From the NCBI GenBank assembly GCA_030433295.1, contig JAUIMJ010000011.1, positions 1 to 33,510 on the forward strand: a stretch of 33,510 nt of DNA, given 5' to 3'. A model generated the notes under the pieces. That model was not told where the DNA came from and made no database searches. It worked only from the letters and a program-made list of their open reading frames with translations. The number at the start of each line of letters is the position of its first letter. The first letter of the stretch is position 1. This DNA is from a bacterium. Its GTDB lineage: Bacteria > Bdellovibrionota_C > UBA2361 > SZUA-149. The translations under genes and the position numbers were made by a program. Below, piece after piece: positions 181-14,654 of the stretch.

Positions 181-1035
181 ATGAATTTCTACAAGTATCA
201 TGCGCTGGGTAATGACTATATCGTGCTACGTGCGGAGGACGGTGCTGATCGCCTGCAGCCGGAGCAGATCGAGCGCATTTGCCACAGGCATTTTGGCGTG
301 GGGTCCGACGGAATTCTGGTGTATTTTCCTAAGGACGAGGACGGCAGCTTTCCCTTTCGCGGCTTCAATCCTGATGGAAGTGAGTTTGAGAAAAGCGGAA
401 ACGGGCTACGGATTTTCTCGCGATTTCTTTACGACCAGGGCTTTGTCAGCGAAGAGCCTTTCAAGATTCGGACAATCGCCGGGCCTGTTGAAAGCACGGT
501 AAGCGATCAGGGACGCAGTGTTTCCATTGAGATGGGCGAAGTCAGTTTCCAGAGTGAGATTATTCCCGTAGCTGGCGAATCCCGGGAAGTAGTGCAGGAA
601 ACCATTCAGGCCAAAGAAAAGAGCTTTGTTTTTACGGCAGCCAACATCGGCAATCCTCACTGTGTGATTCCGACTACGGGGCTTAGTGCTGATATGGCAA
701 AGACCTATGGGCCGGATTTAGAAGTGCATCCCATGTTTCCCAATCGCACTAACGTGCAGTTCATGGAGGTGCTGGATCGAAACGCCATCCGCATCGAGAT
801 TTGGGAGCGAGGCGCCGGGTATACGCTGGCATCCGGAAGCAGTAGTAGTGCTTCAGCTGCGGTGGCGAAGAAGCTCGGTCTTTGTGACAGTGACATCACG
901 GTGCATATGCCGGGGGGGGGTCTGTCTATTCATGTCGATGATTCCTTTGCGGTTCGCATGGCTGGGGATGTTACTCGGGTTGGGGATGGGCAGTTTTATC
1001 CGGAGATGATGGAGTGGACTTTGGGAGGGGGCTAG
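181..1035 (+). CDS. Diaminopimelate epimerase-like protein lacking both catalytic cysteines
   Basis: The 284-residue protein has the DapF fold signature from end to end: N-terminal FYKYHALGNDY (3-13), HFGVGSDG (37-44), a FNPDGSE segment (62-68), NIGNPHC (155-161) and WERGAG (208-213). DapF normally interconverts LL- and meso-diaminopimelate in the lysine/peptidoglycan pathway using two cysteines. Here both positions are serine: EKSGNGLR has Ser72 and TLASGSSSSA has Ser218, where canonical enzymes read CGNG and ACG. The codons are AGC at 394-396 and TCC at 832-834, so this is not a translation artefact. The length is normal. The protein may be a paralogue with a different or lost activity. I therefore withhold the symbol dapF. 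Its stop codon lies two bases before a GTTAGGC core that opens the cassette array. Confidence 0.85.
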   Translation: MNFYKYHALGNDYIVLRAEDGADRLQPEQIERICHRHFGVGSDGILVYFPKDEDGSFPFRGFNPDGSEFEKSGNGLRIFSRFLYDQGFVSEEPFKIRTIAGPVESTVSDQGRSVSIEMGEVSFQSEIIPVAGESREVVQETIQAKEKSFVFTAANIGNPHCVIPTTGLSADMAKTYGPDLEVHPMFPNRTNVQFMEVLDRNAIRIEIWERGAGYTLASGSSSSASAAVAKKLGLCDSDITVHMPGGGLSIHVDDSFAVRMAGDVTRVGDGQFYPEMMEWTLGGG

Positions 1036-1064
1036 CGTTAGGCGTTTTTTGAGAGGCTCGTGGG

Positions 1065-1182
1065 ACGCCGGAGGAGAAAGCATGTCTTTCGCTCTCTGGT
1101 CCTCGCGCTTTCGTCCTTTAGTTTTGCTCAAAGGCCTGTCGGCTGCGGATGTTCGCTACAGACATGCTTTCTCCTCCGGCGT
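1065..1182. repeat. Perfect 23-bp inverted repeat, copy 1
   Basis: The arms 1065-1087 and 1160-1182 are exact reverse complements (arm starts ACGCCGGAGGAGAAAG), with a 72-nt spacer. The right arm is followed by GTTTTGC, so the transcript could fold into a very stable hairpin and perhaps end transcription. It is unlike an attC stem, which normally has mismatches and bulges. Confidence 0.85.
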
Positions 1183-1335
1183 TTTGCTTGTTTGCTGGGG
1201 GTTGTTTCTCCGGGGAACTTTTCTTCTGACTGCATTTACTCCGGTGGGAAATGCAGTTCAGAAGGAGGAACTTAAGTCTGCTCCGGATACCTATGTTTTT
1301 GCTAACATCCTGTATTTGTTTTTGTTAATCTCGAA

Positions 1336-1431
1336 GCTAAGAACTTACACTCGAGTGGAACTGCAGTCGCATTGAGTGTAATCGAGTTTGAACTGAATGG
1401 GTGGCGAGAACTCGTCATCATTATGTTATCT
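1336..1431 (+). other. attC-like site of gene-poor cassette copy 1
   Basis: The right half, TGGCGAGAACTCGTCATCA followed by TTATGTTATCT, is a recurrent sequence in this array (also near 3085, 5389, 6345 and, weaker, 12632). It ends in a good GTTRRRY-type core at 1425-1431. The left half (from about 1336, GCTAAGAAC) is degenerate compared with copy 2. The left boundary is approximate. Confidence 0.55.
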
Positions 1432-1464
1432 CTCTAAAAACAGGCTCGTCATCTATTCGTAACA

Positions 1465-1839
1465 ATGGCCAAACGTGTGTGCTGTAAGTGTAGCAACGGT
1501 GAAAAGTGGAGGGATGCCCCCGGTGCCTCTGCATCGCTGCACTGGGATGATCTTTACAGGCGAGACGATTACCTATTTGTGCCGTTTAAAACATGGTTTG
1601 TGTGTCAGGAGTGTATTGACAGAGATTTAAAGCATAGTCCCATTTTGTGGAAAGTTGGTTGTTTGATCAGAGCTACGGTAAGTTTCCTTTCTTTTCTGGC
1701 GACACTCCTGGTATTTGTCGTTTTTGGAATGTTTATCGGGTTTGAATTTGGACCGAACGGGGCTATTGTAACTTTAGTAGTAATAGCCTGCGGAATCGGC
1801 GTCCTTAGTGCGGCAGTGTCAGCTATCGGTAGAGATTAA
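1465..1839 (+). CDS. Hypothetical membrane protein with N-terminal CxxC pairs
   Basis: This 124-residue protein is of unknown function. The first 55 residues carry CCKC near the N-terminus and CQEC near residue 50, a spacing that suggests a small zinc-binding module. Hydrophobic segments follow at about 65-90 and 95-118, so it is probably an inner-membrane protein with two spans. The ATG at 1465 lies 40 nt after the preceding recombination core, and the stop is about 10 nt before the next attC, which is the usual layout of a one-gene cassette. Confidence 0.6.
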   Translation: MAKRVCCKCSNGEKWRDAPGASASLHWDDLYRRDDYLFVPFKTWFVCQECIDRDLKHSPILWKVGCLIRATVSFLSFLATLLVFVVFGMFIGFEFGPNGAIVTLVVIACGIGVLSAAVSAIGRD

Positions 1840-1849
1840 TCGCAGCGAG

Positions 1850-1946
1850 AGATAACAATTCGCTGCACCGGATTCTCGGCTTGTACTTTTTTGTGGTACC
1901 AGAGACTAAACAGTTTGCCGAAAACCGGTGAGCTTTAACGTTATGT
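1850..1946 (+). other. attC site
   Basis: The site begins at AGATAACAATTCGC and ends TTTAACGTTATGTTT, with core GTTATGT at 1940-1946. Its inner arms GCACCGG (1863-1869 region) and CCGGTGAGC pair imperfectly. The next ATG follows at 1957. This layout matches chromosomal integron attC sites. Confidence 0.8.
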
Positions 1947-1956
1947 TTCTTGAGAT

Positions 1957-2316
1957 ATGTACGAGTTACCGAATGAATCACATTTAAAGGAGTTGATTGG
2001 GCAAGAAGTAACTCTTGTGTCGATCGGCCCATATGACGCTCAAATTGCCTTCGAAAAGGGAGTAGTGATTCAATCTCTACACAAACTAGAGGGTGAGGTA
2101 AATGGAATTAAATCGCTGTGGTTTGATGGTAAGTGGGTAACCACTAAAGATGTTATCCACGTACCCAAGAAAGAGGTAACTGGCATCAGAAATGAGAATG
2201 AACTGGTGCTAAAAATTGCTTTAACTGGTGGTGTAGCTCTCTACATACACACAGAGGTCTCGCAATACGAGAGCATAAATATTACTCGTAGCGATGGCGC
2301 ACTTGAGGTTATATGA
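1957..2316 (+). CDS. Hypothetical cassette protein (possibly DUF6188-like)
   Basis: This 119-residue soluble protein has no signal peptide or membrane span. The N-terminal LKELIGQEVTLVSIGPYDAQ segment recalls small beta-rich proteins of the DUF6188/immunity-protein type, where a 'GpyDaqi.F' pattern recurs; that is recollection and unverified. A W-rich centre (SLWFDGKWV) and C-terminal YESINI complete what can be seen. The start is 11 nt after the preceding attC core, and an attC follows the stop by about 14 nt, so the gene fills one cassette. Confidence 0.6.
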   Translation: MYELPNESHLKELIGQEVTLVSIGPYDAQIAFEKGVVIQSLHKLEGEVNGIKSLWFDGKWVTTKDVIHVPKKEVTGIRNENELVLKIALTGGVALYIHTEVSQYESINITRSDGALEVI

Positions 2317-2329
2317 GCAAGCACCAAAA

Positions 2330-2410
2330 CATAACAAGGCCAGGCACAATCGCCCCTTCGGTGCTGGACCTCCGCACTTCGTGCTCCGGCCTGTGCTGGC
2401 GACGTTACTT
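2330..2410 (+). other. attC site
   Basis: This well-formed 81-bp site runs from CATAACAAGGCCAGGCACA to TGTGCTGGCGACGTTACTT. The outer arms pair (GCC-GGCACA with TGTGC-TGGC) with one extra unpaired base, and the centre GCACTTCGTGC forms a second stem. The core GTTACTT is at 2404-2410. Extrahelical bases of this kind are a hallmark of attC folding on the bottom strand. Confidence 0.88.
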
Positions 2411-2431
2411 TGCTTTCCAATATGAAGGTGC

Positions 2432-2734
2432 ATGAAGAATTTTGTGCTCATAATTTTGGTCGTTGCCCTTGGCTTTTCGGCGTTCGTCATATTCCATCAA
2501 CGAGAGGCTCAACATTTAATGCTTACGAAGATTGAAACTCTTCGCTTGGAAGCTCTGGCGTCAGCGATTAATTCCTATGCTCGTCACAGCTCGAGAAAGG
2601 AGCTGCCGGTCAATCTACAGGTTCTTCTCAAGGACGATGGCCAATATCGGGCAATTGACGACGAACTCCTCGAGAACCCCTGGGGTTGCGCAGTCTTAAA
2701 AAGAGCCGGGCTACTTGAGCCCGGAGGGGGCTAG
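2432..2734 (+). CDS. Pseudopilin-like small membrane-anchored protein, C-terminus overlapping repeat DNA
   Basis: The 100-residue product has a hydrophobic N-terminus (residues 4-22), then a helical region and a DDELLENPWG segment resembling the 'DPWG' stretch of type II secretion pseudopilins. It lacks a clear prepilin cleavage motif with Glu at +5, so this assignment is weak. The last ten or so codons (from AGLLEPGGG) are read through the recurrent GAGCCGGGCTACTTGAGCCC motif and the start of the duplicated cassette. The natural C-terminus may therefore have been replaced by insertion of that element. The start is 22 nt after an attC core. Confidence 0.5.
   Translation: MKNFVLIILVVALGFSAFVIFHQREAQHLMLTKIETLRLEALASAINSYARHSSRKELPVNLQVLLKDDGQYRAIDDELLENPWGCAVLKRAGLLEPGGG
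2698..2724 (+). repeat. GGAGCC-hairpin motif, copy 1
   Basis: The sequence AAAAAGAGCC GGGCTACTTG AGCCCGG contains the stem GGGCT/AGCCC around ACTTG. It lies inside the 3' end of the preceding reading frame and abuts the second copy of the duplicated cassette. Confidence 0.7.
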
Positions 2735-2764
2735 CGTTCGGCGTTTTTTTGAGAGGCTCGTGGG

Positions 2765-2882
2765 ACGCCGGAGGAGAAAGCATGTCTTTCGCTCTCTGGT
2801 CCTCGCGCTTGCTTCTTTTAGTTTTGCTCAAAGGCCTGTCGGCTGCGGATGTTCGCTACAGACATGCTTTCTCCTCCGGCGT
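2765..2882. repeat. Perfect 23-bp inverted repeat, copy 2
   Basis: The arms 2765-2787 and 2860-2882 are exact reverse complements and identical to those of copy 1, with the same 72-nt spacer length. The spacer has several substitutions around 2810-2820 while all 46 arm bases are unchanged. Confidence 0.85.
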
Positions 2883-3012
2883 TTTGCTTGTTTGCTGGGG
2901 GTCGTTTCTTCTGCCTGGATTTACTCCAGTGGGAGATGCCGTTCAGAGGCGGGAGCGTAAGTCTGCTTAGGGCGTCTGTATTTTTTAACGTCCTACATTT
3001 GTTTGTGTTAAG

Positions 3013-3114
3013 CTGTAACGCAGGAGTCCGAGCTCGAGGGGAACTAAGGTTTCATTGATTGTTATCGAGTTCAAATTTGATTGGTGGCGAGAACTCGTCA
3101 TCACTATGTTAACT
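3013..3114 (+). other. attC-like site of gene-poor cassette copy 2
   Basis: The site runs from CTGTAACGCAGGAGTCCGAG to TCACTATGTTAACT, with core GTTAACT at 3108-3114. The outer arms GAGTCCGAGCTCG and CGAGAACTCGTC pair imperfectly. Its left half recurs alone at 4287-4327 and its right half at 5356-5418. Confidence 0.65.
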
Positions 3115-3129
3115 CATTTATATTCGCTC

Positions 3130-3492
3130 ATGAATAAGTTGAAAAAATATTTAATATACATTTGTATTTTTGCAATATTTTTCATTTGGATTGAAAAAAT
3201 GCTTTTAGCACCAACTGGTTCCGATAGCATCAGAGAGGAGTTTCAAGAGGCTTCTTTGTCACCGGACAGGTGGGTAAATCTAATTGGTATAAGTGAGGGG
3301 CGTATATATTTCGAAATAGGGAATCGCGATAGTGTCGTATCTAATTTTGGCTTAGGCTTTTCTAGGGAGGTTCGCTGGGTTCCATTAGAGCCACCCTCTG
3401 GAGAAAATAGAGATTCGAATTTTTACTTCACTAAAAAAGAACTAGAATCTCTAGCTATGGGTAACATACCGTGGGTTAAAGATGAAAAATAG
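3130..3492 (+). CDS. Hypothetical single-span membrane protein
   Basis: From the ATG at 3130 the product has 120 residues. A lysine-rich start (MNKLKKYL) is followed by one hydrophobic segment (about 8-25), then a roughly 95-residue soluble, probably periplasmic domain with no family I recognise. The reading frame is open back to 3055, but that part lies in the attC repeat, so I choose 3130, which is 22 nt after the recombination core. The gene is AT-rich compared with the flanking core genes, which fits foreign origin. Confidence 0.55.
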   Translation: MNKLKKYLIYICIFAIFFIWIEKMLLAPTGSDSIREEFQEASLSPDRWVNLIGISEGRIYFEIGNRDSVVSNFGLGFSREVRWVPLEPPSGENRDSNFYFTKKELESLAMGNIPWVKDEK

Positions 3493-3651
3493 CATCAAGA
3501 AGATAACAATTTTAATCACAGAACGTTCGCTTCGAGAACGCCTGTATCTATAACTGCTATCTCTTATTTACCCTATGGGTTGCTATGAAGAGAGCAACTG
3601 AATCGTACATCAGTTCCAGCGAGCTACTGGTGAGAACAGATCGAAGTACCT

Positions 3652-3682
3652 AAAAAACGAGCCGGGCTACTTGAGCCCCGAG
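3652..3682 (+). repeat. GGAGCC-hairpin motif, copy 2
   Basis: An A-run followed by CGAGCCGGGCTACTTGAGCC and CCGA. The hairpin GGGCT-ACTTG-AGCCC ends 9-12 nt before the TTG start of the next gene. The 3493-3651 stretch ahead of it has a GATAACAA box at 3502-3509 that may be the left end of a decayed attC, and no gene. Confidence 0.65.
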
Positions 3683-3690
3683 AAATTTGA

Positions 3691-4221
3691 TTGTCAGACG
3701 AACAAGAAGAAATAATCGACATCGCCATCTTGGACATGGGCGGCACTATTAACGGCATCCTATCGCCGGAAGATCCTTCGCCGAAAGAAAGTCGTGTCAT
3801 TGAATTTATCACTGAACGACAGTCCGCATATTCGATAAGATGTACATCTGAGATAGTCGTCATGAAGGATTCTCGCGCGGTTCTTGATAATGACCGCGAT
3901 TTACTCGCTGCTGCGATTGGGCGAACCCTCAGCAGTCGCATCCTCGTACCTCACGGGACATTCACGATGCCGGAAACGGGCGAGTACCTCCAACATATTC
4001 TAGCTCCATCGATAGGAGGCAAGTGCATAATTCTCGTGGGCGCAATGACCCCACTCCACGACGACGATTCCGACGCTCCAGATAACCTTGAATTCGCGCT
4101 CGATAAACTTCGAGACGCGCCGCCTGGGATATGGGTGGCGATGAACAAGAGGCTTTGGGACCCGAAAACAGTCATCAAAGACCCAGAAACGGGTGAGTTT
4201 AGGGAGCGAAGTGGGGTATAA
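3691..4221 (+). CDS. Asparaginase-domain protein, N-terminal domain only
   Basis: The 176-residue product matches the N-terminal domain of type I/II L-asparaginases. It has MGGTI with the first threonine (Thr19), PHGTFTMPETGEYL with the second (Thr90), LVGAMTP (116-121), a SDAPDNLEFAL segment, and a TVIKDPETGEF end whose Lys163 aligns with the catalytic lysine. Full asparaginases have about 330 residues. Short stand-alone homologues ending in a similar WVAMN...ETGEF pattern are known as a separate, poorly characterised group. The residue after Thr90 is Phe where classical enzymes have Asp, so asparagine hydrolysis is doubtful. The start is TTG at 3691, just after the hairpin motif. Function in the cell is unproven. 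Confidence 0.7.
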   Translation: MSDEQEEIIDIAILDMGGTINGILSPEDPSPKESRVIEFITERQSAYSIRCTSEIVVMKDSRAVLDNDRDLLAAAIGRTLSSRILVPHGTFTMPETGEYLQHILAPSIGGKCIILVGAMTPLHDDDSDAPDNLEFALDKLRDAPPGIWVAMNKRLWDPKTVIKDPETGEFRERSGV

Positions 4222-4418
4222 CCAATGCGGTGATAAGAGCCAGCAAGCTGGCCTTTCGAAAGGAGCCGGGGTACTTGAGCCCGCGGCGCAGGAGTCCGAG
4301 CTCGAGGGGAACTAAAGTTCCATTGATCTAGCAAAAAGGAGCCAGGCTACTTGAGCCCCGAAGAAGGTCTTTTCCGATGCAGTGGATTTGGCTACGTTTA
4401 ACAGGAGAACGCTGGCGA
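4222..4418 (+). repeat. Gene-free stretch with two GGAGCC-hairpin motifs and half an attC
   Basis: The region holds copy 3 of the motif (4259-4282, AAAGGAGCCGGGGTACTTGA then GCCCG). Next comes the left half of the 3013-type attC (4287-4327, CGCAGGAGTCCGAGCTCGAG onward) and copy 4 of the motif (4333-4361). The right attC half is missing at this place. GGTATAACC at 4214-4222, at the stop of the preceding gene, may be the R'' box of its attC. It looks like a patchwork of rearranged cassette ends. Confidence 0.55.
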
Positions 4419-4474
4419 CATAACAAAAAATGGGCCGGAAGAGCTTGAGCTCGCCACTCATTTATCCGTTATAC
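4419..4474 (+). other. attC site (short)
   Basis: The site begins with CATAACAAAAAATGGGCCGG and ends TTTATCCGTTATACG, with core GTTATAC at 4468-4474, which fits GTTRRRY exactly. The centre AGAGCTTGAGCTC is partly palindromic. The next ATG is 17 nt downstream. Confidence 0.7.
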
Positions 4475-4490
4475 GTGAATAGGATCGAGA

Positions 4491-4829
4491 ATGGAGCTTG
4501 AATCGAAACCACTGGGTTGGTGGATGCGGAATCTACACGAAATGCCTAGTGATATCTGGCTTTGGATTTCAAGCGAAACAGATAAGCTTTCTCCAGAAAC
4601 TGTATGCTTCATTGTAGATAATGGCATTGATCTGAGCGCCGAAGAGCAAGATCAAAGAGAGATTGATTTAGAAAATAGTGGTTTAATGTGCTTCTTCTTC
4701 AAAGATCAACTTGAAGAAATTCAGCTCAACCTAAAGGCACAAAAATCAAACTTTGAATCCAGTGACTTATATGAGGCATTAAATTACTACTGGGAAAACG
4801 ATGCATTCATCGATCTCAACAACGTATAA
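4491..4829 (+). CDS. Hypothetical acidic cassette protein
   Basis: This 112-residue soluble, acidic protein has no signal peptide. A Trp-rich N-terminus (LGWWMRN, DIWLWISS) and the C-terminal segment EALNYYWENDAFID are the main recognisable features. The latter recalls a family of small uncharacterised proteins (possibly DUF7716), which is unverified memory. The stop codon lies inside the R'' box of the following attC, as is common for compact cassettes. Confidence 0.6.
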   Translation: MELESKPLGWWMRNLHEMPSDIWLWISSETDKLSPETVCFIVDNGIDLSAEEQDQREIDLENSGLMCFFFKDQLEEIQLNLKAQKSNFESSDLYEALNYYWENDAFIDLNNV

Positions 4830-4906
4830 CAAGGCCAAGTAGCATCGCGCACTGCGTGCACTGGATCTCGCTACGCTACGCTCGGCCGCTTTTGGCGGCG
4901 TTACAC
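4824..4906 (+). other. attC site
   Basis: An 83-bp site running from GTATAACAAGGCCAA to TTGGCGGCGTTACAC. The outer arms GCCAA and TTGGC pair. Inner segments GTAGCATCGCGCACTGCGTG and CTCGCTACGCTACGC can form further stems. The core GTTACAC is at 4900-4906. The AACAAGGCCA box is shared with the site at 2330-2410. Confidence 0.85.
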
Positions 4907-4916
4907 CGCTTTAGCG

Positions 4917-5333
4917 ATGACCACTAAGACCCCAGAGCAACAGAAAGATACTGACCGATTAAATCGATACATAGCGCGCGAAGGGCTTGTCTCCTTTATG
5001 AGTAACACTAAGTGGAGAAAACTAGTCGACACGATTAGTTCTATCGAAGGGTATCGTCCAAGATTTCGAGTTAAAGTCGTTCGAGACGAATTTCTAGAAG
5101 AAAGTTGGGACTTTAGTTGGCCTTATCATCTACCACCATACAAGAGTATCGAATGGCTTGATCTCGATTGTAACTTGAGAACTCGGCGTGGGAATTTGAT
5201 AGAGGATCATGTAGAAAGCTTCTTTGAAAAGCTGAGCCTATCTTTAAACATGGTCCATATTGAGTTTGAGAAAATAGAGGACGAAAACATCCTCCGCGTT
5301 TATGGATACAAGCGAAGTGGAAAATCGGTCTGA
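4917..5333 (+). CDS. DUF6678-like protein, first of two neighbouring paralogues
   Basis: The 138-residue soluble protein contains FMSNTKWRKL (about 29-38), a WDFSWPYH segment, SIEWLDLD near residue 80 and the C-terminal ILRVYGYKR. The same pattern order occurs in the protein at 5435-5764 (MNDTKWEEL, EWFYHFREGG, TLEWIEIQ, VIRVFGYLP). I recall this pattern from DUF6678, a family of unknown function; the name is not verified. The start is 11 nt after an attC core. Confidence 0.65.
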   Translation: MTTKTPEQQKDTDRLNRYIAREGLVSFMSNTKWRKLVDTISSIEGYRPRFRVKVVRDEFLEESWDFSWPYHLPPYKSIEWLDLDCNLRTRRGNLIEDHVESFFEKLSLSLNMVHIEFEKIEDENILRVYGYKRSGKSV

Positions 5334-5340
5334 CCTCGAG

Positions 5341-5418
5341 AAGAAGCCGGGCTACTCATTGATTGTAATCGAGTTTTAATTTAATAGGTGGCGAGAACTC
5401 GCCATCACTATGTTATCC
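5341..5418 (+). other. Chimeric repeat: truncated GGAGCC motif joined to an attC right half
   Basis: AAGAAGCCGGGCTACT (5341-5356) is the start of the hairpin motif without its second stem arm. It runs directly into CATTGATTGTAATCGAG and the recurrent GGTGGCGAGAACTCGCCATC block, ending in core GTTATCC at 5412-5418. A normal attC left half is absent, so this site may be inactive or a recombination product. Confidence 0.6.
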
Positions 5419-5434
5419 CTCTCAACGCACAAAT

Positions 5435-5764
5435 ATGAATTCGGCTTACGTCTCTTGCATGAATGACACGAAATGGGAGGAGCTTCGACAGGCTATGCTC
5501 GCGCTTGGTGAGATTTCTCCAAAGTGGCGTGCGTGTGATCTCGAAACGAAACACATTAGTAGCTGGGATGGTGAGTGGTTTTACCATTTCAGAGAGGGGG
5601 GATACTCAACCCTTGAGTGGATCGAGATCCAGACAGAGAGTCCTCAGCAGCATGAGGCGGCCTTAGAGGCCATCAAAAAAATCCACGTTCCTGGAAGAGT
5701 TAAGGGAGATGTCATTCGAGTCTTCGGATATTTACCTCCGGGAGAGCAAATCGACTATCTATAG
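5435..5764 (+). CDS. DUF6678-like protein, second of two neighbouring paralogues
   Basis: This 109-residue protein shares the order of motifs with the protein encoded just upstream: CMNDTKWEEL (9-18), EWFYHFREGGYSTLEWIEIQ (47-66) and VIRVFGYLPPGE near the C-terminus. It lacks the roughly 20-residue N-terminal extension. The two sequences are only distantly alike, so this looks like acquisition of two family members rather than recent tandem duplication. It starts 17 nt after the attC core at 5412-5418. Confidence 0.65.
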   Translation: MNSAYVSCMNDTKWEELRQAMLALGEISPKWRACDLETKHISSWDGEWFYHFREGGYSTLEWIEIQTESPQQHEAALEAIKKIHVPGRVKGDVIRVFGYLPPGEQIDYL

Positions 5765-5769
5765 ATGGG

Positions 5770-5874
5770 GGACAACAACTAGGTTGAGCGGACGGGGTGA
5801 TCGACTTATCGTTGTTGCATTATTATTTGCTGAGCGGCTGGGAGTGAGCCCGCCGCTCACCTAAACCGTTATCT
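5770..5874 (+). other. attC site with visible extrahelical bases
   Basis: This is the clearest attC fold in the window. The left arm AGGTTGAGCGGACGGG (from 5781) and right arm CCCGCCGCTCACCT (to 5862) pair along AGGT/GAGCGG/CGGG, leaving a T and an A unpaired on the left side. The site is bounded by GACAACAA (5771) and core GTTATCT (5868-5874). Unpaired bases at such places direct integrase strand choice in known attC sites. Confidence 0.9.
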
Positions 5875-5957
5875 GAATATAGCGCTTAGTTGATCCGGTG
5901 CATACACGATATGTATTCCTTTTGCGTATGATTGTAGCCACACTCCATTAAGGTTCC

Positions 5958-6275
5958 ATGGAAACTCCAGAACTTCAGAGGCGAGCAAGGTATACATTGA
6001 AGAGGGGCCTGATTCTAACTGCATCATCCCTGGTATGCGGAAGTGTCGGGCTGGTAATTTCTTTGGGGACTCGAGACGTGTTACTTAGTGACTACTTCTT
6101 GATTCCTCTTGGGCTTCTCTTAGGTATCTTCTCTTTCTATATGTTCTTTTCATCATACGTTGATTACATTCGACTATGGAGAGCCGAAGGAATTTTTTCA
6201 GCTTACCTAATCTTTTTTTCGATATTTCTTGTTTTGGTAGCAGTTTGGATGCTTTGGTTACTTGCGTACATCTAA
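5958..6275 (+). CDS. Hypothetical inner-membrane protein with three predicted spans
   Basis: The 105-residue product is highly hydrophobic. Likely spans are residues 15-37, 45-67 and 80-103, after a positively charged start (RRARYTLKR). No family is recognised. The ATG is 89 nt after the preceding attC core, longer than usual, leaving room for a cassette-borne promoter; I see no clear -35/-10 pair there. Confidence 0.55.
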   Translation: METPELQRRARYTLKRGLILTASSLVCGSVGLVISLGTRDVLLSDYFLIPLGLLLGIFSFYMFFSSYVDYIRLWRAEGIFSAYLIFFSIFLVLVAVWMLWLLAYI

Positions 6276-6317
6276 GCGCCTTCTGCATTCGTTTTTTCAG
6301 GCCTAGATTATTCCTCA

Positions 6318-6375
6318 GAAAAGGAGCCAGGCTTAATTTGAGAGGTGGCGAGAACTCGTCATCACTATATTTTCT
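6318..6375 (+). other. Truncated GGAGCC motif plus attC right half with degenerate core
   Basis: AAAAGGAGCCAGGCTTAATT (from 6319) is the first half of the motif. It is followed by GAGGTGGCGAGAACTCGTCA and TCACTATATTTTCT. The core position reads ATTTTCT instead of GTTATCT, so the G at the cleavage point is lost and the site is probably dead. The next ATG is at 6392. Confidence 0.6.
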
Positions 6376-6391
6376 CTTTTAACCGAAACTA

Positions 6392-6964
6392 ATGGATAAA
6401 ACCCGAGAACTGACTCGTAGGTTACTGGAAGCCGTCGAAAGTAATGACTTGGAGTTATGCCGAGAGCTTTGTCTTGCGGGGGCTAGCTTGGAGCCCGTGC
6501 TTTTCGCAGAAAACAAAGACGAAGACTTAAATGACTACCCACTCCCTCATGCAGCGGATCTAAATCACTTTGAAATAGTCGCGTACTTTTTGGATTCTGG
6601 AGTAAATCCGAACAAATTTTTCGACCTTTCGGCGCTTCATTACGCCGCGAGCAATGGCAATCTCGAAATGGTTCGACTCTTGCTCAAAAGTGGCGCCGAT
6701 ATTGATCTTGAAGATTGCTCTTGAGACACTCCTATTCTTGGCGCTGCCGCACGAGGTCATCTTGAGGTTGTCCAGTTCCTCGTTGAGGCTGGAGCCAAGG
6801 TGAACTACTGGTCAGAGGGCGATTCTCCCCTTTCAGTTTCTCGCGATCATGCAGAAGTTTATGAATTTCTTTACGCTTTGAGTGATGAAGAGCGCAGAGA
6901 GCATTCGGCTAAAATTCGGAAAGATGAAATTTCCAAGCCGACAAAGCATCAATTCAGGAGATGA
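6392..6964 (+). pseudogene. Ankyrin-repeat protein gene interrupted by one in-frame TGA
   Basis: The frame from ATG 6392 gives 110 residues with ankyrin repeats (FEIVAYFLDSGVNPN, SALHYAASNGNLEMVRLLLK) and meets TGA at 6722-6724. In the same frame translation continues for 80 codons to the TGA at 6962-6964, giving DTPILGAAARGHLEVVQFLV and more, a perfect continuation of the next ankyrin repeat. The full product would have 190 residues and about four repeats plus a charged tail. The TGA sits just before DTP, where repeats often have Trp or Gly; one G-to-A change from TGG would explain it. Two shorter products or read-through are possible but unproven. Ankyrin proteins mediate protein-protein contacts. 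Confidence 0.75.
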
Positions 6965-7079
6965 CTAACGGAATGAACCGATGGCCACTCTATTGTAGTT
7001 CCAGAAGTATTGGCTAAATGAAGTGCTTAGGTCATACGGGCCACAGCTCTTCCTTACCTTTCTTATGTAATCTGTTTCT

Positions 7080-7505
7080 ATGAGCACAGACTTTACATGT
7101 TTTGCTGAAGTTAGACGCGACGGCGAGTGGCGTTTGTTAACCAGTACTCTAAAAGAGCAAACCGGTGAATACAGGCCACAAGAATTCGATTTTGGCGGGA
7201 TTCAATTCTCCGACCAGGAAATGGCTAAAATATTCGGCGGTCCAGATGATGCCTTTTCTGTCATGGAACGAGGGGATGAGATTGGCGAATTGCCGGGGGA
7301 TTGTTCCCACTATCTTCTTAAATACGAGAAAGACGGCTACACACCATATCCTGGTACTCTAAGCGTAAAGGAACTCAAGGAGCATCTTCATCATCTAGGC
7401 TCTGAGCTATCACCTCGCATGAAGAATGCATTGGAGCGATCAATTAGTAAATTGTCGACTGTTGGGGACGATGATGATGTTAGAATTGTATATTGGTTCT
7501 CTTAG
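7080..7505 (+). CDS. Hypothetical soluble cassette protein
   Basis: The protein has 141 residues and is acidic, with no signal peptide or membrane span. Visible features are a strand-rich start (DFTCFAEVRRDGEWRLL), the central GDEIGELPGDCSHYLLKYEK and a C-terminal DDDDVRIVYWFS. I do not recognise a family. A weak CTTATGT core about 17 nt before the start suggests a decayed attC in 6965-7070. Confidence 0.55.
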   Translation: MSTDFTCFAEVRRDGEWRLLTSTLKEQTGEYRPQEFDFGGIQFSDQEMAKIFGGPDDAFSVMERGDEIGELPGDCSHYLLKYEKDGYTPYPGTLSVKELKEHLHHLGSELSPRMKNALERSISKLSTVGDDDDVRIVYWFS

Positions 7506-7696
7506 TGCGATGAAGGATAACAAGCAGGGGAACTAAACGTTCCAAGAATGCCTTGAGCTGGAGCCGACGAAACCCCCCGTCGGTCGATCCTGACAAATTT
7601 TTTTGTCGTCGGGTGTTCGGACCTTCCTTCGTTGGGTAATTGTACTTTCATTCATTGCTTTCCTTACGAAATACCTAACGTTACCCCTTAGCATTG
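7506..7696. other. Gene-free stretch with small hairpins and a possible decayed attC
   Basis: GGATAACAAGCAGGGGAAC just after the stop looks like the left end of an attC. The region also has two hairpins: CCGACG/CGTCGG (7564-7583) and GACAAA-TTTT-TTTGTC (7592-7607). A palindromic TAACGTTA lies near 7677-7684. No gene is visible. Confidence 0.4.
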
Positions 7697-7800
7697 GCTA
7701 ACAAAAAGTTGGAGAGGACGTTACGAGCGTAATGTGCTAGGCCTAGTCACTAGTAGCTCGGCAGAGCCAATGGCTGCCTGCTCTCCTAATACGCTTATTC
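7697..7800 (+). other. Degenerate attC site
   Basis: The site starts GCTAACAAAAAGTTGGAGAG and ends TGCTCTCCTAATACGCTTAT TC. The arms GGAGAG and CTCTCC pair. The core reads CTTATTC (7794-7800), with the first base changed from G. The next ATG is 13 nt downstream. Confidence 0.55.
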
Positions 7801-7812
7801 CATTAAGGTAAA

Positions 7813-8226
7813 ATGAAGCTTCAGAAAGCACTACGTTACTCAATTCTTGTTTCTCTTCTTTTATCAGGAGGAATAGGACTTTCACTTAAGCAGAAATTTT
7901 CTGTTACTCCGTGGGCTACGGTAGTCTTTTTGTTTCTGACCTGTACACTTTCTATCGCTCTCGGCCTCCGCTACTTTTATTCTCAGGACAAGACCCCCAC
8001 TACATTGGTGGATCGTATCTTTGGAGGCCTTGGCGGATTAGTTCTTTGTGGGCCGATTTGGCTCGAAATAATAATGAAGTTAGATTTTCCAGATATTGCC
8101 TGGATATTTGAAAGTAATGGAATGAAGGTAATCTTCCTACTACTGGCATTTTCCTATGGGTTTGCCTGCTACAGTGTGGGGGTCGCCTCTATTAAAGCTA
8201 AGAGTGAAAGCGAAAGTCGCGAATAA
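7813..8226 (+). CDS. Hypothetical inner-membrane protein with four predicted spans
   Basis: The 137-residue product has hydrophobic stretches at about 9-26, 34-53, 70-88 and 102-127, with a short basic N-terminus and a charged C-terminal tail (KAKSESESRE). It probably sits in the inner membrane. I do not recognise a family. TTAAGGTAAA upstream of the ATG is a modest ribosome binding site. Confidence 0.55.
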   Translation: MKLQKALRYSILVSLLLSGGIGLSLKQKFSVTPWATVVFLFLTCTLSIALGLRYFYSQDKTPTTLVDRIFGGLGGLVLCGPIWLEIIMKLDFPDIAWIFESNGMKVIFLLLAFSYGFACYSVGVASIKAKSESESRE

Positions 8227-8309
8227 GCGCCGCGCCGACGTAAACCAGTAATCTGGTCACTTCACGCCAAAATTATAAGTGTCGATCTATTTTGTACAAG
8301 GCTTTCGCT

Positions 8310-8729
8310 ATGTCAGGATTCAATCTTGCACTTTGTTCAATGCTCTTTATGGGTGTGAGCAACTACCTTTACAAGCGTAGCACTGACGCGATTGGCCCGA
8401 CTAACACGACGTTCTATTACTACGCCTTCAGTGCGATTATTGCAGTATTTGTCTGGCTTGCCTTTCGCGAGGAAAATACTCCCACCCTCGCCCAACTTGG
8501 ATGGCCGCTCGCCGTCGCGGTCTCACTGTTTCTCAGTGTTTGGACCTTCAACCTCGCGCTTGGCTCTCTCGATGTATCCGTGGCCTCGACTATCAGAGGG
8601 CTGTTCTTTCTTGTCACCTTTGCGCTTGCAGTTGCGCTTTCGGGAGAGCCGCTAACGGCAAGAAGGCTTTTTGCTACAGCGCTTGCCCTGCTTGCTGTGG
8701 TCATCTACGGGACTGGTGGAAAGAGTTAG
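8310..8729 (+). CDS. Single-domain EamA/DMT-superfamily transporter
   Basis: From the ATG at 8310 the protein has 139 residues and four to five hydrophobic helices. The last third (VASTIRGLFFLVTFALAV through GEPLTARRLFATALALLAVV) matches the end of an EamA domain, where a conserved 'E.lt...l.G..li..Gv' pattern occurs. Typical EamA permeases have two such domains (about 300 residues); half-size members are known and work as dimers, like small multidrug resistance proteins. The substrate cannot be told. A TTG at 8292 is an alternative start, but AAGG lies 9-12 nt before 8310. The GC content is higher than in the neighbouring cassette genes. Confidence 0.75.
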   Translation: MSGFNLALCSMLFMGVSNYLYKRSTDAIGPTNTTFYYYAFSAIIAVFVWLAFREENTPTLAQLGWPLAVAVSLFLSVWTFNLALGSLDVSVASTIRGLFFLVTFALAVALSGEPLTARRLFATALALLAVVIYGTGGKS

Positions 8730-8749
8730 AGAAGAGGAGACTATAGCTT

Positions 8750-8817
8750 TTTGGTAGGCTGTGAAACACTTAGCTAAGCGATGGGATCTGGCCCGCCGCA
8801 CATCTTAACCGTGATAC
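8750..8817 (+). other. Degenerate attC site
   Basis: The right half GGCCCGCCGCACATCTTAAC CGTGATAC is clearly related to the right half of the site at 5770-5874 (GAGCCCGCCGCTCACCTAAA CCGTTATC). The core is GTGATAC (8811-8817) with one change. The left half is not clear, so the left boundary is a guess. Confidence 0.5.
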
Positions 8818-8827
8818 AATACGCGTT

Positions 8828-9271
8828 ATGGAATCTTTTATTCGATTAGAACGAGTTCCCTACGAAGAACCACACCACTTGAACCTGGTCATTCAGGTTT
8901 CAAATGGTAGGCAACAAGGTGAGCTTGAGTTTTACGATAATGCCTTAACTCTCCTTGAAATTGCTGAGGCATTAGAGTCTTTTCCAAGGGACATTTCTGA
9001 TAGTTTCTTATGGCAACTTGGTTCAGAACAGCCGAGTGACAATTTTGCACACTATTTTTACTTCATGGTGCATTGCTATAAGAAGACAGGACAAAGTGCG
9101 ATTTATATTCGGTTTAACAACAACCGAGACCTGCCAGATCGTGAAATCTCAGAGTTTTGCATAAAGACATATCCTGCAGATATCAATCGGCTTGGGGCAC
9201 TTTTCAGGGAGTTCTCCAAACTAGAAACCAAAGTGCTTGAGTGGAGCGCGACGAGTGCAGAATTTTTCTAG
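8828..9271 (+). CDS. Hypothetical soluble cassette protein
   Basis: The protein has 147 residues and is acidic, with alternating strands and helices and no signal peptide. Segments seen are LNLVIQVSNGRQQGELEFYD (about 19-38), FAHYFYFMVHCYKKTGQSAI and an LE-rich C-terminus. The general look is that of small immunity-like or integron proteins of unknown role. The start is 10 nt after the preceding core. Confidence 0.55.
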   Translation: MESFIRLERVPYEEPHHLNLVIQVSNGRQQGELEFYDNALTLLEIAEALESFPRDISDSFLWQLGSEQPSDNFAHYFYFMVHCYKKTGQSAIYIRFNNNRDLPDREISEFCIKTYPADINRLGALFREFSKLETKVLEWSATSAEFF

Positions 9272-9282
9272 TGTTGAATACT

Positions 9283-9341
9283 GTACAACAAATTATTTAC
9301 GCGAGACGGTATAAGCACCGCTGCGTGGTATTAACGTATAT
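9283..9341 (+). other. attC site (short)
   Basis: A 59-bp site running from GTACAACAAATT to TATTAACGTATATA. The arms ACGCGAGACGGT and ACCGCTGCGTGG pair with one or two unpaired bases around a 6-nt loop (ATAAGC). The core reads GTATATA (9335-9341), missing one T of the consensus. Confidence 0.6.
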
Positions 9342-9344
9342 AGG

Positions 9345-9373
9345 AAAAAGGAGCCGGGCTACTTGAGCCCCGA
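9345..9373 (+). repeat. GGAGCC-hairpin motif, copy placed between RBS and ATG
   Basis: AAAAAGGAGCCGGGCTACTT GAGCCCCGA immediately precedes the ATG at 9375. AAGGAG could be a ribosome binding site, but the linear distance to the ATG is about 21 nt. Folding of GGGCT-ACTTG-AGCCC would shorten the effective distance to a few nucleotides. Confidence 0.7.
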
Positions 9374-9374
9374 C

Positions 9375-9641
9375 ATGTTTGTAATCGAAGATGAAATTCA
9401 CGCCGAACTCTGTGGAGAGTTTGAGACATTCGACTCGGCACTTGCAGAGCTTCGGTCACGGGCTACAGTTCCCTGGGACAGTGCGCCGAACCAGTGCCCG
9501 TGCCAGAGCTGGAAAACTTGTGGGCGTGAGTACTCGATTGTTCAATACGATGTGTCCAAGAGCCCCTGGACGGTGATTGCTCGAAGTATTGTCCTAGAGA
9601 TTTCTAGTAAGGGCGTCGTATGGCATGAAGCAAGCGATTGA
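9375..9641 (+). CDS. Conserved hypothetical protein
   Basis: The protein has 88 residues from the ATG at 9375. MFVIEDEIHAELCGEFETFD, then a TVPWDSAPNQCPC stretch and WKTCGREYSIVQYD, resembles a small uncharacterised family seen in several proteobacteria (from memory). Two cysteines (CPC) and CGREY could bind a metal, but this is only a possibility. An upstream in-frame TTG lies inside the hairpin motif and is less likely as a start. Confidence 0.6.
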   Translation: MFVIEDEIHAELCGEFETFDSALAELRSRATVPWDSAPNQCPCQSWKTCGREYSIVQYDVSKSPWTVIARSIVLEISSKGVVWHEASD

Positions 9642-9712
9642 TTTAGATGGCGACCGGACAAGTAGTAAGACGCTGATTCGGCTGAACTAACTTAAAGCGT
9701 CATGTTTTCCCC

Positions 9713-10033
9713 ATGTGTGTTCAAAAAGAAATTTTGGCTCGCTCCCATTCGGCTGATGAAGTAGTGCTAAGTTACTTTGACGCAATGGAGCTATTGAATT
9801 CGCTGGAAGGAACAAATACAAGGCTGATTTCCTGGGAAGGCCGGATACTCCATAGGAATGGAAACTATGGGCACTCTCAGCGATTTCAAGGTACGTGTGA
9901 CCTTTCAGAGATGCCAATCGGGTCCGCGCTGGCATTGGTGAGAAATACTATCATGCAGTCGAGGGCAGAGTGGGATGAGAATCCGGAGGTTGACGGTGGG
10001 GACTTGTTATTCTGTCTGACACTGGAAGCCTGA
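9713..10033 (+). CDS. Hypothetical cassette protein
   Basis: The protein has 106 residues, is soluble and of unknown function. Mixed strands and helices are expected, with VDGGDLLFCLTLEA at the end. A GTCATGT sequence at 9699-9705, one change from the GTTATGT core, lies 8 nt before the ATG, so an attC may have decayed in 9642-9705. No good stem is visible there. Confidence 0.5.
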   Translation: MCVQKEILARSHSADEVVLSYFDAMELLNSLEGTNTRLISWEGRILHRNGNYGHSQRFQGTCDLSEMPIGSALALVRNTIMQSRAEWDENPEVDGGDLLFCLTLEA

Positions 10034-10115
10034 TCTAAAGAATGCTGATGCCTGAGTTTCGGAGCTGATGAGTTGGCACCGAATTTACAGCATTTAAACC
10101 TGTAGAAAATCTAAG

Positions 10116-10493
10116 ATGGACGAGTCGAGGGGGAACATTCTGGTCGAAGATACAGTCTATAGAGTTCTGACGGAGATGTTCCCCAAACGCAATGATTTTG
10201 CTGAATCCGATTACTCGGAGGAATTGGCGGAGCTCCATCATTTTGGAATTAAGTCAGAGGAGGATTTTCGACAATTACTTGTTAAACATCGGGCTAAGAT
10301 TTTGGAAATCGATGCCAGTCCGATGGATAATTGGCATGAAGAATACTATCAGAGAGAGTATCCGGACCAGCCCGTACGAGAACGAATTGATCAGGGTTTT
10401 TGGTTCGCGTTTCCAGCCTTGCTACGGTTGGCACTTGAGTTGGAATTTGGAGAGCAATACGAAAAATTTGCCAACAAGAGAGACGAGGCATAA
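10116..10493 (+). CDS. Hypothetical acidic cassette protein
   Basis: The protein has 125 residues, is acidic and mostly helical, with WHEEYYQREYPDQPVRERID (about 70-90) and FWFAFPALLRLALELEFGE near the end. No family is recognised. The region before it (10034-10115) has no clear attC apart from a CTGTAGAA sequence near 10098. Confidence 0.55.
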   Translation: MDESRGNILVEDTVYRVLTEMFPKRNDFAESDYSEELAELHHFGIKSEEDFRQLLVKHRAKILEIDASPMDNWHEEYYQREYPDQPVRERIDQGFWFAFPALLRLALELEFGEQYEKFANKRDEA

Positions 10494-10511
10494 CACTAAA
10501 TTAAACCAAAC

Positions 10512-10541
10512 AAAAAAGGAGCCTGGCTACCTGAGCCCCGA
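10512..10541 (+). repeat. GGAGCC-hairpin motif, variant copy
   Basis: AAAAAAGGAGCCTGGCTACC TGAGCCCCGA. Compared with the common form, CGGGCTACTTG reads TGGCTACCTG here; the GGCT/AGCC stem is kept. It lies 27 nt before the GTG start of the next gene. Confidence 0.65.
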
Positions 10542-10568
10542 CCAATGTACTGAAACAGGGAAACTTTT

Positions 10569-11342
10569 GTGACGCTAGTTGAAACTCAAATACAAGCATT
10601 ACTAGATGAGCTCGAACGAGATGAGGAGGTTCGACTTCTTTTCGTGTGTGAGTCGGGTAGCCGTGCGTGGGGCTTCGAGTCGGTGGATAGTGATTTCGAT
10701 GTACGTTTCGTTTACGCTCGTTCCAAAGAGTGGTACCTGACCATCGATGAAGGTCGGGATGTAATTGAGCGCCCCATCGATGACGCTATTGACTTAAGTG
10801 GCTGGGATATTCGAAAAGCCCTGAGGTTACTAAGAAAATCTAATCCGCCTCTTCTGGAGTGGCTTCAGTCTCCCATCATTTATCGTGAGAACACCAGGGT
10901 ATCCAGCTGGCTAAAAGAGGAAATCTCGAAGTCTTACTCTCCCACCTCTTGCATGTACCACTATCTCCATATGGCTCAGGGAAACTTTCGAGAGTATCTG
11001 CGCCGGGATGAAGTGAGATTGAAGAAGTACTTTTACGTGTTACGACCCGTTCTCGCATGTCTCTGGATAGAGCAAGGTCGGGGTCCGGTGCCAATGGAGT
11101 TTGACACATTGCTCAAGGAGCTTGTTCCTGGTGGACCCCTGCTTCGGGAAGTATCGAGTTTACTTGTTCGCAAAAAAGAAGGAGAGGAGCTGGACAGAGG
11201 CCCCGCGATACCTGTGATAAATGAGTTCCTTGAATCAGAGATTGAACGCTTGAGTTCGAATAAAGTGGAGCGTAGCGAGAAGACGGAAAGAACCGCTCAA
11301 CTCAATCAGCTTTTTCGAAATATTCTCGATGAAGTTTGGTGA
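10569..11342 (+). CDS. RlaP-type nucleotidyltransferase (Pol beta superfamily)
   Basis: The 257-residue protein matches the predicted nucleotidyltransferases of the RlaP (RNA ligase-associated Pol beta, PF10127) group. CESGSRAWGFESVDSDFDVR (28-47) contains the GS motif (Gly30-Ser31) and the metal-binding DxD (Asp42, Asp44). A KxxxVLRPVLACLWIE helix (about 158-172), typical of the C-terminal part, follows. These enzymes are thought to add nucleotides to RNA or protein ends in RNA repair, but few have been tested. The start is GTG at 10569. It is the largest intact enzyme-like gene of the array and appears complete. Confidence 0.8.
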   Translation: MTLVETQIQALLDELERDEEVRLLFVCESGSRAWGFESVDSDFDVRFVYARSKEWYLTIDEGRDVIERPIDDAIDLSGWDIRKALRLLRKSNPPLLEWLQSPIIYRENTRVSSWLKEEISKSYSPTSCMYHYLHMAQGNFREYLRRDEVRLKKYFYVLRPVLACLWIEQGRGPVPMEFDTLLKELVPGGPLLREVSSLLVRKKEGEELDRGPAIPVINEFLESEIERLSSNKVERSEKTERTAQLNQLFRNILDEVW

Positions 11343-11425
11343 GGAGTTGTAATACAACGCTGACGGACCCTTCACCTCTGATGATCCAAAGCAGACTGAA
11401 ACCAGTATTTCGGGAGAGATTATCA

Positions 11426-11755
11426 ATGCCAATAGCCAATTGCTTATTGTGTGACCCGTCAATACAAGTTGCCGACGATATCGTTGAAACCTGGTCGAAT
11501 GAGTCTGGTGTCTCTGCTGAACATATGACCGTGAATTGTATCCCAAGAGTTCAGCAATTCGGGAGGTCCTACAAAATCATGGGCACCTTATATCTCCCTA
11601 CGGCATGGGAGGCGGAAGCTGTGGACTCCTTACAAATTGGGCTGAGCCGTTCTTTAGCGAAATGTTGTAAGCTTGAACTATCCGAGATTCATGTCGTTAC
11701 GCTGCGTGTGGCCTCAGGTATGGTTGTGGAGAATGGTTTACTAGAAACCTGGTAA
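11426..11755 (+). CDS. Small conserved protein, possibly tautomerase-like
   Basis: From the ATG at 11426 the product has 109 residues. GGGAGAG (11412-11418) is a good ribosome binding site 7 nt upstream, so I reject the longer frame from 11336, which overlaps the preceding gene. The protein starts Met-Pro (MPIANCLLC), and its length and ABB-like pattern (GVSAEHMTVN, YKIMGTLYLP, LSEIHVVTLRVASGMVVENG) resemble tautomerase/MIF-fold proteins that use an N-terminal proline. This is an inference; the remaining active-site residues cannot be judged. Confidence 0.5.
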   Translation: MPIANCLLCDPSIQVADDIVETWSNESGVSAEHMTVNCIPRVQQFGRSYKIMGTLYLPTAWEAEAVDSLQIGLSRSLAKCCKLELSEIHVVTLRVASGMVVENGLLETW

Positions 11756-11824
11756 GCCTGATGTATTGAAGCCATGGCGAAGGAGTTCGAAATCCCCATA
11801 GTAATGCGCTAACGAAGCTTACAA

Positions 11825-12211
11825 ATGACGGCCAGCATCACAAAAGAAAAAATGCTTCCGCTTCTCGTTGAATCCAGTCCTGGCTTTGCCGGGCAGTGGG
11901 AGGCATTTCAGGCGGATTGGAAAGATGAAGAAGCTCCGCTTTATGTTGTTTTGGGTGATTTCGCTCGCTACCTGATTGATAAGCATGAAAAGGGCGAGAC
12001 ATCAGATTTCGACGCGATATTTAACGTCGTAGAACGCCTGCACATTGATGGCGACGCTTATGTTCAGAACGCGGTGGCTGTCGGACTCCTGGAGGGCATG
12101 CAAAACTCCATGCGGGCTAACGACAGTAACCCGGAGGTGTTTGTTGAGTACCTGCAAGCAGCGACTCGAGAGTCCTGGAACAAGCTGAATACATTTTGGA
12201 ATCCAGTATAG
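11825..12211 (+). CDS. DUF7674-like hypothetical protein
   Basis: The 128-residue acidic helical protein contains EKMLPLLVESSPGF (8-21), LYVVLGDFARYL (38-49) and DGDAYVQNAVAVGLLEGMQN (about 75-94). That arrangement recalls DUF7674, a family of small proteins of unknown role; the name is from memory. GCTAACGAAGCTTACAAATG just before the start may be a relic of a recombination core. Confidence 0.55.
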   Translation: MTASITKEKMLPLLVESSPGFAGQWEAFQADWKDEEAPLYVVLGDFARYLIDKHEKGETSDFDAIFNVVERLHIDGDAYVQNAVAVGLLEGMQNSMRANDSNPEVFVEYLQAATRESWNKLNTFWNPV

Positions 12212-12260
12212 AATAAGTTTACAAGCGTACTTCAGCGGGCGTTTTATGTGAGATGCGACT

Positions 12261-12569
12261 ATGAAAACCTGCAATGTAGAGGAGATTAGAGTTTCTGAAG
12301 ACGGGCGACTCTATGTAAAGCCGGATGGGCTGACGTTCCCGTATATTTATCGTGAGGCGATGGAGGTATCTTGGGACAAGGAATTGAAGTCATTCTACTC
12401 GCCTCACCCAAGAGAGTGGACGTATCTGGAATGGTATAGGCAGATTCATAAAGCAGCCATAGCGCAGAGTTGCCAACTGAAAATTACCTTTGAGACCCTA
12501 TGGGTCAACATTTCAGACGAATTGAAGGAAAGCATATCTGCTGAGTTTGACGAAAAAGGAGCGGAATAA
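12261..12569 (+). CDS. Probable Hfx_Cass5-type integron cassette protein
   Basis: The 102-residue protein reads DGRLYVKPDG, FPYIYREAMEVSWD (about 27-40), FYSPHPREWTYLEWYRQIHK (about 45-65) and ends in a charged helix. This resembles a widespread small protein family one member of which (Hfx_Cass5) was recovered from an environmental integron cassette and crystallised; function is unknown. The match is from memory of the pattern. A GTTTTAT core-like sequence (12241-12247) lies 14 nt before the ATG. Confidence 0.6.
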   Translation: MKTCNVEEIRVSEDGRLYVKPDGLTFPYIYREAMEVSWDKELKSFYSPHPREWTYLEWYRQIHKAAIAQSCQLKITFETLWVNISDELKESISAEFDEKGAE

Positions 12570-12573
12570 AAGG

Positions 12574-12654
12574 AGCGAACAAACGCCCGCTAGCTTAGTC
12601 TGAGGTGAGGTGATACCAGTATTTAACAGGGAACTCGTCATTGCCAGGTTATCC
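12574..12654 (+). other. Degenerate attC site
   Basis: The right half GGGAACTCGTCATTGCCAGG TTATCC is related to the recurrent GAGAACTCGTCATCACTATG TTATCC block, and the core GTTATCC is at 12648-12654. The left boundary at GAACAAAC is tentative. This site argues that the next gene starts at 12664 and not at the upstream GTG. Confidence 0.5.
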
Positions 12655-12663
12655 TTATACGTC

Positions 12664-13077
12664 ATGACCACAAGATTCATTCATATCAATCAAGATTGGA
12701 ATGCGGAGCCTAACGATCCAGAGCCAATGGTCTCGCTTGTCGACGGCGTACTTTTTCTTGAATTCTACGCGAATCCTTGGGCCTACGAGGGGTACGCTGA
12801 AGGCGAGAAGCTTCGGCTAGAGTTCTCCGGGTGCAAACGCTATCGACTTGGTAGAGTCAACGACGAGGGCTGGTATCGTGGGCAGTGTCGTTTTTCGACG
12901 TTGGCTCCCAAGTGGGGTGAGTTTTACGAACTCCAGGGAGACAGGCTCCTTGAAAAATGTCCTTCCGATTGGATAGACGTCGGACCTGCACACGGCCCCA
13001 GACATTTTCTTTTTTACTTTCGTGATGAAGAGTTCGAGTGTGAAGCAGACAGTTTCGAAATGAAGCGAAGGGAATAA
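12664..13077 (+). CDS. Conserved hypothetical protein
   Basis: From the ATG at 12664 the product has 137 residues. The frame opens at GTG 12610, but 12610-12654 lies in an attC-like repeat, so the later start is preferred. A conserved-looking centre, RLGRVNDEGWYRGQCRFS and LAPKWGEFYELQGD, resembles a small uncharacterised family found in proteobacteria (from memory). It is aromatic-rich, probably beta-sheet and soluble. No catalytic motif is recognised. Confidence 0.6.
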   Translation: MTTRFIHINQDWNAEPNDPEPMVSLVDGVLFLEFYANPWAYEGYAEGEKLRLEFSGCKRYRLGRVNDEGWYRGQCRFSTLAPKWGEFYELQGDRLLEKCPSDWIDVGPAHGPRHFLFYFRDEEFECEADSFEMKRRE

Positions 13078-13137
13078 CAAGAATAATGCAGCGGATTTTG
13101 GTGTGAGTCATCGGTATCAACAAGGTTTCTAGCAGAT

Positions 13138-13608: not shown

Positions 13609-13626
13609 AACGGGAAAACAAACAGC

Positions 13627-14193: not shown

Positions 14194-14278
14194 CCCGCTT
14201 TGCTGTGTTACTTGAAAATTGACTGGTGTGCATAGGCGTCGGGCATCTAGACGATTGGACAACTAGGAAATGTAAACC

Positions 14279-14569: not shown

Positions 14570-14654
14570 GCAATGTGAGCTGCGGCTGGTGTCGCCTTGT
14601 TTTTTTATCGGGGCTATGATCGTTAACAACTAGTTCATTCGCTGCGTATGACTC

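Follow-up and report, generated by a model that had tools for sequence, protein, structure and literature searches.

Putative orphan attI sites at the head of and inside an integrase-less cassette array in a bacterium of the Bdellovibrionota_C

In the usual description, an integron has one integrase adjoining one attI. Clusters of attC sites that lack an integron integrase are known as CALINs, for example those of Xanthomonas that lie away from ilvD (available text of PMC12444791). They are also known from archaea (available text of PMC9668308), and the available texts of both sources propose that CALINs are mobilised in trans. Unusual cassettes of the delta-attI type occur in class 1 and class 2 integrons and are functional with IntI1 (PMC12901181, which cites Partridge 2009). 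Here we compare with these systems a cassette array found in a stretch of 33,510 nucleotides, hereafter the window, from a bacterium of the Bdellovibrionota_C (contig JAUIMJ010000011.1 of assembly GCA_030433295.1).

The array occupies approximately positions 1036 to 15540 on the plus strand and resembles a CALIN. It is flanked on the left by a dapF-like gene (181-1035, plus strand; Pfam PF01678, 3e-51; TIGR00652, 247 bits), in which both catalytic cysteines are replaced by serine, and on the right by trpA and trpB (15612-17700, minus strand). Five well-formed attC were called between 1850 and 5874 and no others elsewhere in the window, against about 1.5 in shuffled sequences. At least two attC without a nearby intI define a CALIN; the window has five and no intI. 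The content of the array is some 25-30 short plus-strand ORFs, mostly unknown or of varied families. The first two gene cassettes (1437-2410, plus strand) consist of the ORFs at 1465-1839 and 1957-2316 with attC at 1850-1946 and 2329-2410, respectively. Because few attC are recognisable beyond about 6 kb, much of the array may be dead. In one relative (G002), dapF and trpA are convergent and 7.3 kb apart and there is no array between them; we rejected this locus as a clean empty site because ordinary genes fill the interval. The dapF product of the window is the only DapF homologue found in the genome, with serine at both catalytic positions (KSGNGLRIF, ASGSSSSA). Three further genera of the family keep this Ser/Ser pair, as does a second family, f13 (one copy reads ASGSSSCA), and DapF in related orders has the usual Cys/Cys.

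A unit of about 400 bases is present twice, at 1024-1431 and 2723-3114, with the common junction GGAGGGGGCTAGCGTT, as a preliminary description of the window had stated. That description also reported identical 23-bp arms around a 72-nt spacer in each copy, and these are indeed present at 1065-1087 and 1160-1182 in copy 1 and at 2765-2787 and 2860-2882 in copy 2 (left arms on the plus strand, right arms on the minus strand). Its statement that spacers and 3' parts had diverged was right for the 3' parts and wrong for the spacers, which are identical at 69 of 72 positions. The real contrast is between the conserved 5' module (1024-1204 and 2723-2904, plus strand), with 97% identity and 5 substitutions in 181 sites, and the diverged 3' part (1205-1431 and 2905-3114), with 75% identity and 52 substitutions in 210 sites (p = 9e-11). 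In copy 1, the 5' module consists of the last 12 nt of dapF and a leader that carries the inverted repeat. The unit is a mosaic, in which a 97% leader is joined to a 75% attI, and not the self-contained gene-less cassette ending in attC that had been proposed. Nor are its limits those of a cassette, because the common sequence begins 14 nt before the sole GTT-like left-end core.

The identification of the 3' part comes from its homologues elsewhere in the genome, on contigs C89 and C113. C89 carries the only integron integrase found in this genome (TIGR02249, 442 bits against a cut-off of 265); the genome is a draft of 4.45 Mb in 425 contigs and 86% complete, and another intI could therefore be missing from it. 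The order on C89 is a tRNA-Leu-like sequence, intI on the minus strand, attI and then cassettes, the first of which has a well-formed attC. We take C89:19432-19662 as the intI-linked attI because of its position between the intI start and the first cassette. Identity to this site is 80% for window positions 1205-1429 and 74% for 2904-3111 (over 208-226 nt), and 72% for C113:9674-9885. All four full-length copies of the genome end in the crossover ATGTTA, with different genes beyond it. The first copy in the window (1205-1431, plus strand) stands at the head of the array and has its crossover GTT at 1425-1427; the second (2905-3114, plus strand) lies within the array, with its GTT at 3108-3110. 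The GTT ends are followed by cassettes with attC. No IntI was found upstream of 1205, of 2905 or of the further orphan attI on C113, nor anywhere in the window, and the window locus thus has no intI adjoining its attI. The core at the 3' end of the unit had been called attC-like, which is wrong in kind: because homology to the intI-linked attI of C89 extends over the entire 3' half, we regard this core as the crossover end of an attI. Of the DNA-level signal suggested earlier, a recombination signal at the 3' end is retained and the hairpin as a selected signal is not. To judge from sequence, both units thus have as their 3' half a genuine primary recombination site of an integron without an integrase, and from this identity and the GTT end it follows that the window contains an integrase-less array headed by attI. 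The attI region also has a hairpin of its own (CTGCATTTCC...GGGAAATGCAG), which is intact on C89 (L011:2524-2550) and C113, paired in copy 1 (1228-1257) and lost or decayed in copy 2. Because of this loss, copy 2 may be non-functional.

Similar sites were found in relatives. Among 45 genomes of the class, three (G008, G024 and G026) have 2-6 extra integrase-less attI each, beside one intI-linked attI. G008 has three attI, one of them with intI (C60:90559). Its two orphans (about 51970-52185 and 54100-54276) share this 295-kb contig with intI, at a distance of 36-38 kb, and belong to an array of their own without intI; attC occur at 53.7 kb, and none was detected at about 61-91 kb. The internal and upstream orphans of G008 have an exact 17-bp leader in common, a parallel to the duplicated 5' module of the window. 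Directly behind an orphan attI of this genome (L082:4197-5698), the first genes seem to encode a nucleotidyltransferase and a DUF6602-like protein, perhaps a defence pair borne by a cassette. In G024 a single intI accompanies four attI, and in G026 a single intI accompanies five full-length attI and two short ones. Nothing of IntI beyond fragment length was found upstream of any orphan attI. In G026, the four full-length orphans retain the beginning of intI, in lengths that vary from about 5 to 42 codons, and because these 5' ends are retained the sites appear to derive from intI-attI platforms. Some copies in this genome are 93-95% identical, and copying was therefore probably recent. The copying has been lineage-internal and repeated, as is seen from the clustering of attI within genomes or genera. 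Clean attC lie directly downstream of orphan heads in G008 (head A), G024 (C22 and C60) and G026 (C147 and C200). In three independent sets of attI, conservation is highest in the final 32 columns ahead of the crossover (permutation p = 0.001, <5e-5 and 0.006), and gene conversion between copies could account for part of it.

Taken as a whole, we consider it likely that the window contains orphan attI, one heading the array and others inside it, that arose by copying of a platform and loss of intI, that are served by IntI in trans and that carry a passenger leader. The intI-attI platform would have been copied and intI then lost, so that orphan heads were formed, and the attI heads would have been retained after the loss of the redundant intI. 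The sole remaining IntI probably works on these heads in trans, where it would insert cassettes and excise them. As for the internal copies, they may be cassette ends of the delta-attI type or local duplications of the array head, and the 5' module may have been copied recently between its two sites by duplication or gene conversion. To judge from how dapF ends in G001-G003, the 12 nt common to both copies seem to be native to dapF at least in part, and copying was therefore probably from copy 1 to copy 2. Platform copying and intI loss are supported by the sequences compared; the service in trans we infer. The presence of several orphan attI with usually one integrase suggests that one enzyme may serve many docking sites. 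It is possible, though we would put it a little short of an even chance, that the class commonly has a multi-platform integron, in which one integrase acts in trans on dispersed attI-headed arrays, the heads being copied and kept and the extra intI lost.

The internal copies could be explained separately, as cassette ends of the delta-attI type, known from mobile integrons, in which an aberrant crossover by IntI takes a piece of attI along with the cassette. Besides copy 2, the array contains an attI fragment between two D2 repeats (4284-4326, repeat family D5) and two attI suffixes, one that ends at GTT (5357-5417) and one in which the crossover has decayed to ATATTTTC (6333-6376), all on the plus strand. 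D2 is a repeat of 20-28 nt (AAAAAGGAGCCGGGCTACTTGAGCCCCGA) that is confined to this array. On the plus strand between 2703 and 10538, it (GAGCCGGGCTACTTGAGCCC) occurs in full from 2703, 3659, 4263, 4339, 9351 and 10519 and truncated at 5346 and 6324. It forms the left junction of each internal attI fragment, lies also upstream of several cassette ORFs and could be a minus-strand terminator or a scar of rearrangement. With the exception of 4284-4326, the internal copies are like delta-attI cassettes (PMC12901181) in that their right end is the attI crossover and their left end varies. The replacement of attC by an attI suffix, which characterises such cassettes, is seen in the third cassette, whose ORF (2432-2734, plus strand) has no attC, is joined via D2 to the 5' module of copy 2 and is fused in this way to an attI unit; the two suffixes likewise sit after ORFs without recognisable attC. 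The neighbouring cassettes at 4917-5333 and 5435-5764 both encode DUF6678 proteins, with a truncated D2 and an attI suffix between them. However, copy 2 includes a leader of 180 bp and the final 12 nt of dapF, which exceed any delta-attI in PMC12901181, and the left junctions all lie within D2 and not at core sequences of IntI. Because copy 2 carries this leader, local duplication or conversion of copy 1 is as likely an origin. We are rather doubtful of the delta-attI account, which concerns the internal copies only and is compatible with the orphan-attI explanation.

An alternative for the locus as a whole is pure decay, in which an ancient integron lost intI and left a dead CALIN, the attI being inert relics and the duplications the result of random recombination at repeats. 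The decayed attC of the distal array, the degenerate crossover at 6376 and the intI 5' fragments adjoining orphan attI in G026 would all be expected from such a process. However, inert relics would not be expected to have crossover ends better conserved than the remainder of the site, nor clean attC directly behind orphan heads, as in the three relatives, and the recent copying in G026 also argues against it. We think that decay alone is rather unlikely.

In the preliminary description, the inverted repeat was the core of the unit, and conservation of its arms against a diverging spacer was attributed to selection on a terminator, a small RNA or a DNA signal that moved as a gene-less cassette. 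The arms are identical between copies, and the perfect 23-bp repeat extends to a near-perfect one of 28 bp (93%) around a 62-nt loop, with a strong predicted RNA fold (z = -4.3). However, the spacer is equally conserved, as there are 0 substitutions in 46 arm positions and 3 in 72 spacer positions (p = 0.28, from two copies), and selection on structure finds no support in two copies that are 97% identical throughout. No Rfam family reached its gathering threshold and no intrinsic terminator (a stem-loop with a T run) was called at the hairpin, which speaks against a terminator or a small RNA, and the left end has no cassette boundary. The sole Rfam match with E below 1, a miRNA family, was rejected (E = 0.008; 28 bits, 168 needed). 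The arms are not an attC either: they have no flanking paired R'' and R' cores, and the scan for the R''-L''-L'-R' hairpin (RYYYAAC...GTTRRRY) passes over them. The module was found in two copies in its own genome and nowhere else in it; neither it nor the full unit was found in 57 relatives or in the other genomes of the 45-genome class, and the search for further arms in databases gave no match to the exact 23-bp arm in genome_contigs or to its 20-bp core in viral_contigs. Comparison of the module with intI, attI, the tRNA-Leu flank and the region upstream of the C113 site gave no homology above shuffles. The earlier view that no protein frame is under selection here was correct: a coding role for the plus-strand ORF that starts from the left arm is rejected because each of the three substitutions in the spacer is non-synonymous and the frame of copy 2 soon meets a stop. 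Both arms hold a Shine-Dalgarno-like AGGAG followed by ATG, directed into the loop from each side. We consider a selected hairpin very improbable; most simply, the module is a recently duplicated leader, a passenger and not the functional core, though it may have some function.

An artefact of assembly or binning, by which copies from different strains were joined in a draft genome of many contigs, is hardly credible, as the two copies differ in sequence and are part of a single contig, and the same multi-attI pattern occurs on the single 295-kb contig of the independent G008, as well as in G024 and G026.

If several attI heads share one integrase, a genome would have several entry points for cassettes. 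Tools for finding arrays would then overlook part of the system, and an origin of many CALINs by loss of intI, and not by insertion at random attG, could be tested through attI homologues at their heads. Integrase-less arrays are usually counted by attC alone. In the literature searched we met no direct precedent for orphan attI or for more than one attI, although this does not prove that none exists. As far as we have searched, a genome with several attI heads and one intI is a novel variation on the biology of integrons and CALINs.

The array of the window is like a CALIN, as outlined in the available texts of PMC12444791 and PMC9668308, in that it has attC and no adjacent intI, while the genome keeps one intI elsewhere. 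It differs in that full attI, homologues of the intI-linked attI, stand both at its head and within it, and in that three further genera of the class also have several orphan attI in one genome; the definition of a CALIN rests on attC alone, and the same available texts do not report attI heads for them. The resemblance to delta-attI cassettes lies in attI suffixes of variable length that end at the GTT crossover and replace the attC of a cassette within an array. However, the delta-attI of PMC12901181 are mostly 14-18 nt long (one of 244 nt and one full attI1) and belong to mobile resistance integrons, whereas we find a chromosomal array with full-length attI, a 180-bp leader and dispersed heads of separate arrays. 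By analogy, the unit may also be compared with the gene-less promoter cassettes of Vibrio superintegrons (PMC11014356), which are non-coding, a few hundred bases long and located in arrays and may drive downstream genes, as the unit perhaps might too; those units are cassettes, whereas the unit of the window has an attI as its end and lacks the boundaries of a cassette. The sedentary chromosomal integron, with intI, attI and array in order, is matched by the C89 locus, whereas the window locus consists of attI and an array without intI.
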